The notes under the pieces were generated by a model. The model was not told the DNA's origin, ran no database searches, and saw only the letters and a list, made by a program, of their open reading frames with translations. From Sutcliffiella horikoshii (GTDB lineage: Bacteria; Bacillota; Bacilli; Bacillales; Bacillaceae_I), in contig KV440964.1 of assembly GCA_001636495.1 (NCBI GenBank), forward strand, positions 1,132,666 to 1,196,665: a DNA stretch of 64,000 nt. Direction: 5' to 3'. The position numbers were made by a program, and so were the translations under genes. This document shows, one piece after another, positions 25,295 through 30,843 of the stretch; the first letter of the stretch is position 1, and every line of letters begins with the position of its first letter.

Positions 25295-25343
25295 CCTTCT
25301 TTTCCCTCCTAAAATACTTTGTATTTCAGGCAGCCCAGCCATC

Positions 25344-25478
25344 TTAATTAGTAAAAGGAATTACTCTTTTCCATTTACACAATCTTAGATCTGTTGACTT
25401 TGCGTCCTTGCCTTTCAGCAAGTTTGCCTTTGACTGTTGTTTCGAATAATCGATATACAACTTTGGTATTACTACCAT
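25344..25478 (-). CDS. Possible 44-residue ORF upstream of sinI
   Basis: The frame starts MVVIPKLYIDYSKQQSKANL and ends VIPFTN. It is basic, has no recognisable domain, and runs in the same direction as sinI, ending 49 bases before it. AGGAAGG lies only 3 bases before the ATG, which is tight. It could be a real small gene of the sin operon, or chance. Confidence 0.3.
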   Translation of the reverse strand: MVVIPKLYIDYSKQQSKANLLKGKDAKSTDLRLCKWKRVIPFTN

Positions 25479-26683: not shown

Positions 26684-29065
26684 ATGGAAGAAATTATTCA
26701 ACAGCATGTAGATAAACTTCTATCCTACATGAAAGATGAGGCCTACAAGCCACTAACTACAAAAGAACTCGAACAAGCTTTTGGCATAAACAATTCAGAG
26801 GAATTCAAGGACTTCGTAAAAGCCTTGGTGTACATGGAAGATCAGGGGCTCGTAGTACGTACGCGCAGCAACACCTATGGCCTTCCTGAAAAGATGAACC
26901 TGATCAAAGGAAAAGTGATCGGTCACTCCAAAGGCTTTGCATTTGTTATGCCTGAAGAGGCGGATATGGACGATGTGTTCATACCACCAAATGAGCTGAA
27001 TAACGCAATGCACGGAGATATCGTGCTTGTGCGGGTAAGCAGGAAAGCCGCCGGTGATTCGCGCCAGGAAGGGACGGTCATCCGTATCGTCGAGCGTGGG
27101 GTCAAGGAGATTGTTGGTACATACACCGAAAGCAAGAACTTTGGTTTTGTCATTGCCGATGACAAGAAGATTGCCAATGATATTTTCATTCCGAAAAGTG
27201 CGAGCCATGGAGCAGTGGAAGGGCATAAGGTCGTTGTAAAATTGGTCACGTATCCGGAAGGCCGCCTAAGTGCGGAAGGAGAAATTATCCGTATTCTCGG
27301 ACATAAAAATGACCCTGGTGTGGATATATTGTCTGTCATCCATAAGCACGGCCTGCCTCAGGAGTTCCCGAAAGAAGTGCTGGACCAAGCGAATGCGACA
27401 CCGGATGAGATTGATGAAAAAGATCTAGGTGACCGCCGTGACCTGCGCGACCAGGTAATCGTGACGATTGACGGAGCGGATGCAAAAGACCTGGATGATG
27501 CGGTAACGGTGACAAAATTGGATAACGGTAACTACAAGCTTGGCGTCCATATCGCGGATGTCACACATTATGTGACAGAAGGTTCACCAATTGATTTGGA
27601 AGCACAGGAGCGTGGGACAAGTATTTATCTGGTGGACCGCGTAATCCCGATGATTCCCCATCGCCTTTCCAACGGTATCTGCTCGTTGAACCCGAAAGTC
27701 AACCGCCTCACCATTTCTTGTGAGATGGAGATCAATGATGCTGGTGAAGTTGTGAAACACGAGATTTTCCACAGTGTAATCAAGACAGCGGAACGAATGA
27801 CTTATACAGATGTCAAAAAAATTCTAGTGGATAAGGACGAGGAAGTAACGGCTCGTTATGAACCATTAGTGCCGATGTTCCAGCTCATGGAGGAGTTGGC
27901 TGCTGTCCTCCGTAAAAAGCGGATGATCCGTGGAGCCATTGACTTTGACTTTAAAGAGTCCAAAGTAATCGTGGATGAAGATGGAGCACCAAAGGATGTT
28001 GTTCTACGTGAACGTTCCGTTGCCGAGCGTCTGATTGAGGAGTTCATGCTTGTTGCGAACGAAACGGTTGCCGAGCATTTCCACTGGATGAATGTACCGT
28101 TCATTTATCGTGTCCATGAGGATCCGAAAGAAGAGAAGTTGCAACGCTTCTTCGAATTTATCACGAACTTCGGCTATGTGGTAAAGGGAAAAGGTAATGA
28201 GATTCACCCGCGTGCGCTTCAGGAAGTAATTGAAGCGGTACAAGGGAAGCCAGAAGAGATGGTTGTTTCGACCGTCATGCTACGTTCTATGAAGCAGGCA
28301 AAATATGATGAGGAAAGCTTGGGACACTTTGGACTGTCCACTGAGTTCTACACGCATTTCACCTCACCGATTCGCCGTTATCCTGACTTAATTGTGCATC
28401 GTCTAATTCGCACCTACCTGATTCAAAAGAAACTTGATGCGAAGACTCAGGAAAAGTGGAGCGAAAAGCTGCCGGAAATCGCCGAGCATTCCTCCAATAT
28501 GGAACGCCGTGCGGTAGATGCTGAGCGTGAAACAGATGAACTGAAAAAGTCCGAGTACATGCTTGATAAAATTGGCGAAGAGTACGATGGCATCATCAGT
28601 TCTGTTACCAACTTCGGCATGTTCGTCGAGTTGCCAAATACCATTGAAGGTCTTGTCCATGTAAGCTATCTGACAGATGACTATTACCGCTACGATGAGC
28701 GTCATTATGCGATGATTGGGGAGCGTACGGGGAAAGTGTACCGTATTGGGGACGAAATCACCGTTCGTGTCATCAACGTTAATAAAGATGAGCGCTCCAT
28801 TGACTTTGAAGTAGTCGGTATGAAGGGGACTCGTCGCCCAGATACGAAGAGTGCACCGCGTGTTATACAAAGCGAACGCAAGAAACCTGCCAAAGGTCGC
28901 AGTCAGAAGCGTAAAGACGAAAGCAATATCGATGATTACACGTTTGAAATCGGCTGGACGACTAAGGGACCAGGTACTGGTAAGCCTGGCACTGGTAAAA
29001 AGAAAAAGAAAAACAAGAAGTTCTTTGAAAACGCGCCGAAACAGAAGCGTAAAAAGAAGAAGTGA
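26684..29065 (+). CDS. rnr: Ribonuclease R
   Basis: The 793-residue 3'-5' exoribonuclease has an N-terminal helical region (1-65), two cold-shock-like RNA-binding domains (about 70-225) and a large RNB domain (about 255-590) with the metal-binding [12 protein letters not shown]. An S1 domain (about 635-715, [16 protein letters not shown]) follows, and the tail is very rich in lysine. RNase R degrades structured RNA and works with tmRNA and SmpB on stalled messages. smpB and ssrA follow. The ATG has GGGGAGGGATATTTT upstream. Confidence 0.96.
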
Positions 29066-29186: not shown

Positions 29187-29654
29187 ATGCCGAAGGGGAC
29201 AGGAAAGGTCATCAGTACCAATAAAAAAGCCAACCACGATTATTTCATCGAACAGACATATGAAACTGGTATGGTATTGCAAGGTACGGAAATCAAATCC
29301 ATGCGAGCGGGTCGCGTAAACTTGAAGGATTCCTTTGCACGCGTGCAGAACGGGGAAGTATTTTTACACAACTTGCACATCAGTCCGTATGAGCAAGGAA
29401 ACCGATATAACCATGATCCGCTTCGTACACGCAAGCTGCTTCTTCACCGCAAACAGATCAATCAGCTGATAGGTCTTACAAAAGAAGAAGGGTATGCATT
29501 AGTACCTTTGAAAATCTATTTGAAAAATGGCTATGCCAAGCTGTTAATCGGTCTGGGTAAAGGGAAAAAGAAATACGACAAGCGTGATGACTTGAAGAAG
29601 AAAGAAGCGAAACGCGATATTGAGAGAGCGTTCCGTGAACGTCAAAAGGAATAG
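29187..29654 (+). CDS. smpB: SsrA-binding protein SmpB
   Basis: The 155-residue beta-barrel protein binds the tRNA-like part of tmRNA and carries it to stalled ribosomes. It shows the [19 protein letters not shown] opening, [14 protein letters not shown], and the basic C-terminal tail ([21 protein letters not shown]) that enters the empty mRNA channel. The ATG follows AAAGGGGGAAACAGCC. It lies between rnr and ssrA. Because its ligand gene is interrupted by an intron here, it depends on splicing of the tmRNA precursor. Confidence 0.97.
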
Positions 29655-29681: not shown

Positions 29682-29709
29682 TTGCAAAGTTATGTGAGTG
29701 TGCTATAAT
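29682..29709 (+). promoter_or_regulatory. Promoter of ssrA
   Basis: TTGCAA (29682-29687), a 16-base spacer and TATAAT (29704-29709) with a TGC extension give a start near 29716. The precursor would have about 120 extra bases at its 5' end. Confidence 0.8.
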
Positions 29710-29929
29710 AAGGATGTCGCTAAGATAACAGCGGCGCTTTGATAATTGAATAGCCAACTAATTGGCTTGATTATCTTTCCCGTAGAACCTCGTGCTGCTC
29801 TTTGTTGATTTAAATTTCAACAGAGACATTCTAATCGAGGGGACGTTACGGATTCGACAGGGATAGTTCGAGCTTGGGTTGCGAGTCGGGGGGATCGTCC
29901 TCGTCATCAACGTCAACGCCAATATAACT

Positions 29930-29968
29930 GGCAAAGAAAACAACAACTTCGCTTTAGCTGCTTAATAA
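29930..29968 (+). other. tmRNA tag-peptide reading frame
   Basis: GGC AAA GAA ... GCT GCT encodes GKENNNFALAA followed by two TAA stops. With the alanine from the charged tmRNA the tag is 12 residues. The ALAA end is the ClpXP degron. The tag is shorter than the 15-residue B. subtilis tag. Confidence 0.9.
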
Positions 29969-30186
29969 CAGACTATAGCGGTTCCTCCCTCCATCGCCCA
30001 TGTGGTAGGATCAGGGACTCACTCTAAGTGGGCTACGCCGGAGATCGCCGTCTGAGGTCAAAGGAAGAGCACAATCAGGCTAGCTGCCAGGATGCCAGTC
30101 AATAGGCGGAACGGTCAGCGAAATACTAATATATTGACTACACTCGTAGATGCTTAAGTGGCGATGTTTCTGGACGTGGGTTCGAT

Positions 30187-30466
30187 TAATTATTAGTCGC
30201 CTTACATGGTAACATGTAAGTGAAAATCTGGCTTTATCGGTGAAACCTAAGTCGTATTTTTACGATAAGGCAATGCCGAGCGGTATGTGGAGCAATCCAA
30301 CAGCCGTGTATCGACTCATAGGTTGCCACATCTGTGGTAATACTAGGATGCGGAACTGCTAGTTGCAGTTGCAACTAAAAAACTTAGTTCGCATAATACG
30401 CCAGAGGGCCTCCATAGTGAGGTTCAAGATATAGTCAGTGCCATGACGAAAGCATGGAATTGCACG
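30187..30466 (+). other. Group I intron in the T-loop of ssrA
   Basis: The self-splicing type RNA has 280 nt and no ORF. P1: exon CGAT (30183-30186) pairs with GTCG (30196-30199), with the splice-site U opposite G. P2: CTTACAT/ATGTAAG at about 30201-30220. P element ATCGGTGAAACC (about 30236-30247) and Q element GGCAATGCCGAGC (about 30269-30281) form P4. R element GCCGTGTATCGACTCA (30303-30318) and S element AAGATATAGTC (30426-30436) form P7. P9 hairpin CCATG/CATGG (30441-30457). It ends in G (30466), the omega-G. Joining the exons restores GTGGG-TTCGATT-CCCAC exactly. It is also possible to place the ends one base to the right, but that loses the U and G rule. Confidence 0.92.
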
Positions 30467-30494
30467 TCCCACCGTCTCCATTATATTACTAAAT

Positions 30495-30545
30495 AAAAAA
30501 ATCGTCTTTCTTGAGATATAACTCTCTTGAAGACGATTTTTTTTT
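30495..30545 (+). terminator. Terminator of ssrA
   Basis: AAAATCGTCTT pairs with AAGACGATTTT across a 22-base internal segment and is followed by more T. It ends the spliced precursor. Confidence 0.85.
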
Positions 30546-30555
30546 GCATAATAAA

Positions 30556-30843
30556 TTATAAGTTCTGGTTCGGGTTCGTATCAGAAATTTTACGAATATG
30601 AGCTAAATGCTCTTGCATCTTAAATTGTACAATTAATAATTCACAATAAATACGAGTTAAGAAAGGTCCGAGAAATAAAAATACAATTCCCATGAAAACT
30701 TGAGCGCCGCCGCCGTAATAACTGTTCACTCCAGATATTATCATGATAATTCCGCCAATTATACTCAGTGCACAACCTATGTAAAAAATGATTTTAATAA
30801 GTGTTGGGGTAATCATCTTATCAAAGCTTAGAAATTCCTGCAT
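30556..30843 (-). CDS. DUF4282 small membrane protein
   Basis: The 95-residue protein has two transmembrane helices (about 14-38 and 47-70) joined by a glycine-rich turn. The conserved sequence blocks are FLSFDKMITPTLIK at the N-terminus and FLGPFLTRIYCELLIVQFK after the second helix. These match the DUF4282 family as I recall it; function unknown. The ATG is preceded by AAAGGAGGAC on the minus strand. It is alone, convergent with ssrA and divergent from the kinase gene. Confidence 0.75.
   Translation of the reverse strand: MQEFLSFDKMITPTLIKIIFYIGCALSIIGGIIMIISGVNSYYGGGAQVFMGIVFLFLGPFLTRIYCELLIVQFKMQEHLAHIRKISDTNPNQNL

Follow-up and report, generated by a model that had tools for sequence, protein, structure and literature searches.

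The ssrA locus and its interruption

We analyzed a stretch of 64,000 nucleotides of Sutcliffiella horikoshii (hereafter the window), in which the tmRNA gene ssrA is preceded on the forward strand by rnr, encoding RNase R (positions 26684-29065; Pfam RNB 6.5e-119, CSD and S1), and by smpB, which encodes the partner protein of tmRNA and is located just upstream of ssrA (29187-29654; Pfam SmpB 1.4e-62). The ssrA gene occupies positions 29839-30480 of the same strand, starting with GGGGACG at 29839 and ending with ...CGTCTCCA at 30480, and is interrupted by 280 nt (30187-30466) after the sixth base of the T-loop (TTCGAU/U). The 5' exon (29839-30186, 348 nt), which ends with ...GTGGGTTCGAT, contains the 5' strand of the acceptor stem, the tag frame GKENNNFALAA, the pseudoknot region, the 5' strand of the T-stem and the T-loop bases TTCGAT. 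The interrupting sequence, a group I intron, starts with TAATTATTAGTC and ends with AATTGCACG, its first base being a U and its terminal base a G. The short 3' exon (30467-30480) starts with TCCCACCGTCTCCA and provides the remaining T-loop U, the T-stem strand CCCAC, the acceptor strand CGTCTCC and the discriminator A. The T-loop bases 6 and 7 that flank the intron are U30186 and U30467.

Upstream of ssrA, a candidate sigma-A promoter (TTGCAA-16-TATAAT) is present at positions 29682-29709 of the forward strand, a weak call given that three such sites were found versus 2.8 expected by chance. A terminator-like hairpin followed by a U run is located after the gene, on the same strand (30495-30542; fold z -6.65), and is absent from the output of a simple terminator scan. 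Between this hairpin and a kinase gene lies a small ORF on the reverse strand (30556-30843) whose product resembles DUF4282 membrane proteins (Pfam). The window also contains a c-di-GMP-I riboswitch (25326-25438, reverse strand, 65.1 bits). The terminal CCA is not encoded by ssrA (window positions 30477-30483) in any of 18 genomes of the family, with or without the intron, and is encoded at 59 of the 62 other ssrA loci read.

ARAGORN did not detect a tmRNA in the window or in the unspliced ssrA stretch. When positions 30187-30466 were deleted, the same program reported a complete tmRNA of 362 nt with the tag GKENNNFALAA. The default Rfam scan of the window returned a truncated tmRNA match (RF00023, 154.1 bits) that stops at the intron; the intron itself was missing from the list because its score of 41.8 bits is below the Rfam gathering score of 50. 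This score was obtained in a permissive Rfam scan of 421 bases, in which Intron_gpI (RF00028) matched positions 30177-30457 over the complete model (1-253 of 253; E 1.8e-9, and 4.4e-9 when the whole genome was searched). The nine interrupted ssrA loci of the genus score between 36 and 46 bits with this model.

The original prediction, made from the letters of the window, had described an ssrA gene with a normal body and tag frame whose T-arm is split by 280 bases, and had stated that removal of the insert restores the T-arm and the acceptor stem and yields an RNA of about 362 nt. The predicted break is exact to the base. ARAGORN recovers the intact tag, the complete tmRNA and the predicted length from the spliced sequence, and all 12 acceptor/T-stem pairs form. 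The proposed Rfam comparison gave the tmRNA match and an end-to-end Intron_gpI match, though the latter falls below the curated score. There is a lesson for annotation here: an intron-split ssrA escapes ARAGORN, and default Rfam yields a truncated tmRNA and no intron.

Structure and covariation of the intron

A group I structure was drafted from the sequence of this intron and then scored on an alignment of 67 distinct related introns. Part of the material came from 22 named contigs containing the 24-nt junction, of which 19 could be resolved, all of them interrupted; the three unresolved loci were left out, and five duplicates were removed before alignment. Across the 67 introns, 98.4% of 4463 cells are paired and 28 of the 67 pairs are altered on both sides. 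On each of five measures, all 500 shuffles scored lower than the real alignment. Controls in which the pairing partners were slid gave 31-41% paired cells, and the excess of the drafted structure over them is partly explained by the fact that a near-consensus structure was derived from one row. The single-strand fold of the intron has a z of -6.5 versus 100 shuffles.

The helices, all on the forward strand, are arranged as follows. P1 (30184-30198) is formed by the exon bases GAU and the intron bases UA pairing with UAGUC, and places a U(-1).G pair at the 5' splice site; its five pairs, including U(-1).G, are identical in all 67 distinct introns. P2 (30201-30220) is a hairpin of 8 bp with a GUAA loop that is 100% paired, three of its pairs having changed on both sides. 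The two strands of P3 (30227-30232 and GCCAGA at 30400-30405) are 168 nt apart, and nevertheless 100% of their cells are paired, with compensatory changes at four of the six pairs. P4 (30237-30241/30275-30279), P5 (30246-30270), P6/P6a (30280-30307) and P8 (30407-30424) were likewise drafted and scored on the alignment, as was the P9 hairpin with its GAAA loop (30441-30457). P7, which we take to be the guanosine-binding helix, pairs GACU (30313-30316) with AGUC (30433-30436), the latter lying in the S element AAGAUAUAGUC and within the Rfam match; it is 100% paired and invariant in 67/67 introns. Being invariant, P1 and P7 yield no covariation support. Between P7 and the 3' strand of P3 are two helices of variable length whose pairs do covary, P7.1 (30323-30340) and P7.2 (30348-30352/30390-30394), presumably a feature of subgroup IA. 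The lowest pairing values were those of P5 (93.9%), P8 (97.3%) and the tip of P7.1 (75.6%).

The intron termini are T...G in 72 of 72 introns; the boundary finder gave a small bonus to such ends, and the 12 of 12 stem pairs were decisive. The longest ORF with an ATG, GTG or TTG start that overlaps the intron has 46 codons' worth of product (46 aa), and the longest stop-free stretch in any of the 67 distinct introns corresponds to 97 aa; an endonuclease gene is absent.

Most of what had been predicted for the insert is recovered here. The P, Q, R and S elements are covered by the full-length Intron_gpI match, and the core pairs covary except for the invariant P7. The P9 hairpin, the P1 helix with U opposite G and the terminal G (G30466) are all present, and the description of the intron as compact and endonuclease-free agrees with its ORF content. 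The central claim, a group I intron in the T-loop of a tmRNA gene, is backed by the Rfam match, by covariation that includes the long-range P3 helix, and by the empty alleles that the genus contains. At the level of the sequence, the boundaries, a group I core with the P3/P7 pseudoknot, the U(-1).G pair, the terminal G, intact exons and the empty alleles of the genus are established.

Distribution and inheritance

The search for uninterrupted ssrA genes in relatives that accompanied the original prediction was carried out in 16 genomes of the genus. Nine have the interrupted T-arm and seven an intact one with exactly the predicted empty site; none of the 16 contains both forms together or one form twice. 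The intron is also present in two further genera of the family, represented by one genome each. In an evenly drawn sample of the host order, the exact P1-P2 junction pattern was found in 85 of 397 genomes and 36 of 135 genera, the former being a lower bound since the exact pattern was required, and the reversed-pattern control was absent from the matches listed. The intron is therefore common in the host order.

We then read 80 ssrA loci, of which 53 are interrupted and 27 uninterrupted; these numbers give no prevalence because the loci were chosen and not drawn (40 with a tmRNA match ending at the intron site, 20 from the genus, the family and their neighbours, and 20, mostly with a complete match, from a listing limited to the top rows of 393). 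Pairing across the junction is complete at 80/80 loci (12 acceptor/T-stem pairs each), and the P1-P2 junction pattern is present at all 53 interrupted loci and at none of the 27 uninterrupted ones. Two introns that sit among those of Cytobacillus carry organism labels that look wrong: that of L071 (Pseudomonas sp. ISL-84), placed there in the intron tree, and that of L053 (Paenibacillus sp. FSL R5-0490), which is identical to the intron of L122.

In the intron tree, all 11 introns from the family group together in a single clade (support 98/96). In addition, a derived compensatory pair in P7.1 is U-A in exactly these 11 introns and C-G in 55 of the 67. Taken from the sequences, this speaks for one old acquisition of the intron in the family. 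On a tree of 18 genomes, its presence nevertheless requires at least five changes; 6 of the 15 inner branches of this tree have weak support, and one of its rows is filled to only 21%. At least 19 changes are required on a rapidly built host tree of 76 selected rows, from which four of the 80 loci were omitted because the fetched stretch had no SmpB. Several weak forks in the genus tree leave the number and direction of the changes uncertain, and the counts do not distinguish gain from loss. Because the introns of the family form a single clade, it is simpler to suppose that they were repeatedly lost or replaced. The intron is most likely a near-neutral resident, inherited in the family and on several occasions lost or displaced by an intronless allele.

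Distances between 47 introns were compared with those of their hosts, based on SmpB and RNase R. The two are correlated (Mantel r 0.67, a value reached in none of 999 permutations; Spearman 0.47), and for 34 of the 47 the nearest intron sits in one of the three nearest hosts. These comparisons suggest that inheritance of the intron is likely to have been mostly vertical, with some exchange possible. As a separate observation, the intron of G008 (L150) is unusually divergent, with distances of 0.125-0.146 from the introns of its very close relatives G006, G010, G012 and G013, the host distances being 0.012-0.016.

The base at position -1 is a U in 53/53 interrupted alleles versus 7/27 uninterrupted ones, 20 of the latter having a C. 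Among 13 independent pairs, the association of U(-1) with the intron has the same direction in about 8-9 and is never reversed. This association is expected because splicing needs U(-1). Less expected is that the same intronless arm, GAGGG-TTCGAC-TCCCTC, is present in G003 (L145), G011 (L153) and G014 (L156), on three different backgrounds. Over the exon flanks compared (75 nt before the site and the first 30-odd nt after it), G014 differs from its sister G008 in only three respects: the intron is gone, a T-stem pair is flipped (GUGGG/CCCAC to GAGGG/CCCUC), and position -1 is C instead of U. One could imagine that a lineage-old intron was purged repeatedly by very short exchanges within ssrA that imported a ready-made T-arm, for instance via the attachment sites of integrating elements, leaving a C allele that is intron-proof; we regard this as rather unlikely. 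If true, the C(-1) allele could no longer be entered by the intron.

We rejected the idea that a resident integrative element gave rise to the intronless alleles of the genus. Inspection by eye of the ORFs (100 aa or longer) in the 9 kb downstream of eight alleles (the seven intronless ones and that of the window) revealed no integrase, and a search of the 16 genomes that allowed up to one mismatch gave no further copy of the ssrA 3' end. In G003, G005, G011, G014 and G000, the genes after ssrA belong to a shared kinase/dehydrogenase neighbourhood; in G004, G009 and G015 they differ. The intact-arm pattern had five matches in viral contigs, three of which are the 3' ends of phage tmRNA genes that ARAGORN finds complete and two of which lie in large phage tRNA arrays; as far as these stretches show, none is an attachment site of Bacillaceae. 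Carriage of the intron by a phage or plasmid was rejected as well, since blastn of positions 30180-30480 against 50,697 phage and 72,556 plasmid records was negative. The P1-P2 junction pattern occurs in five viral contigs, and these matches are due to chance, because all five lack a tmRNA, a GGG arm and any Rfam match.

Predicted splicing, ribosome rescue and relation to known introns

Intron-form tmRNAs with the intron at position 7 of the T-loop were reportedly described by Williams in 2002. In the account by Nawrocki, Petrov and Williams (2025; PMC11915505), 883 unique intron-form tmRNAs are given, all interrupted in the T-loop and most at position 7; they are predominantly from Bacillota, 4.1% carry an endonuclease, and 843 founding introns have a mean length of 293 bp. 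The Sutcliffiella intron resembles them in its site between T-loop bases 6 and 7, the U at -1, the terminal G, the lack of an endonuclease gene, its length of 280 nt and its Bacillota host, and we found no departure from the class. It is also similar, by description, to the 287-nt group I intron in the tmRNA gene of another species, Clostridium botulinum, which is described as previously shown to be self-splicing (PMC2729099) and which an older review also lists (PMC1995217). The original prediction had itself voiced doubt about novelty, and rightly so, given a published class of 883 unique sequences (PMC11915505). In the openly accessible literature, searches for work devoted to Bacillus tmRNA introns or to how such introns are regulated yielded only the 2025 paper as a treatment at length.

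Two more group I introns of the same genome exceed the Rfam cut-off, and both have protein-coding hosts. One (L192; G000:C1:1082136-1082465) is located in a flagellin gene (Pfam Flagellin_N/C), and only about 40 nt of it align with the tmRNA introns, at 80%; the other (L193; G000:C1:2032329-2032657) lies beside a piece of the ribonucleotide reductase large subunit (Pfam Ribonuc_red_lgC) and has no stretch that aligns. Among the other Rfam matches of the genus, the six that were compared with the tmRNA intron share at most about 40 nt with it.

We are highly confident that the insert is a compact, endonuclease-free group I intron at the main known tmRNA intron site, between T-loop bases 6 and 7, that would be spliced by group I chemistry and is most likely a near-neutral resident. 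According to established group I chemistry, the pre-tmRNA would fold the group I core, and guanosine bound in P7 would attack after U30186, at the site marked by the U.G pair in P1. The released 5' exon would then attack after the terminal G30466, so that the T-arm closes and the 362-nt tmRNA with the junction GGGUUCGAU-UCCCAC is freed. In the minimum-energy fold, the T-stem and the acceptor stem are paired across the intron; such pairing would keep both exons together and, if the model holds, may favour the T-loop as a landing site.

Since the genome has only one tmRNA locus above the cut-off, a functional tmRNA presumably requires splicing; the other 23 tmRNA matches listed are weak, all below the cut-off, and look like cross-matches to tRNAs. 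Ribosome rescue would then presumably depend on splicing, and it is reasonable to suppose that it might also depend on guanosine, temperature or antibiotics. A gene of the RqcH family (NFACT) is present, so tmRNA is possibly not the sole quality-control route. The single tmRNA locus would also suit an intron acting as a condition-sensitive switch, in which guanosine/GTP, temperature, Mg2+ or a ligand limits splicing and sets the tmRNA level to the benefit of the host, and a precedent exists in the ligand-controlled group I intron of C. difficile (PMC3984707). However, no aptamer-like or other Rfam element was found inside or adjoining the intron, the window's c-di-GMP-I riboswitch lies 4.7 kb off and on the opposite strand, the most variable parts of the intron are the peripheral loops (P5 tip, P7.1, P7.2 and P8), and the intron is dispensable, being missing from 7 of the 16 genus genomes. 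We therefore consider a switch improbable. That the intron has decayed, leaving ssrA dead or crippled in this strain, would fit its sub-cut-off Rfam score and the fact that splicing is predicted from the sequence; but all core pairs form in its own sequence, the nine interrupted loci of the genus score 36-46 bits, and the exons, the tag frame and the adjacent smpB are intact, which makes decay very unlikely. Two-piece tmRNAs do exist (PMC11915505), yet excision without ligation, as for rRNA intervening sequences or permuted tmRNAs, can be practically dismissed here, as the gene order is standard and not permuted and the insert combines a full group I core with the signals of both splice sites.

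The Sutcliffiella ssrA intron, spliced in our reading as a group I intron, is an ordinary member of a described class, and its kind was already known; it will not surprise a specialist, and the original prediction overstated its importance. What is added here is the evolutionary picture: a single clade, repeated changes in presence, and the U/C difference at -1. The case is a sound one and offers a useful series of sister alleles. The occurrence of interrupted and clean alleles in close relatives within one family shows how a single-copy quality-control RNA keeps and loses an intron, and these sister alleles are natural pairs in which its cost or gain in trans-translation could be measured.
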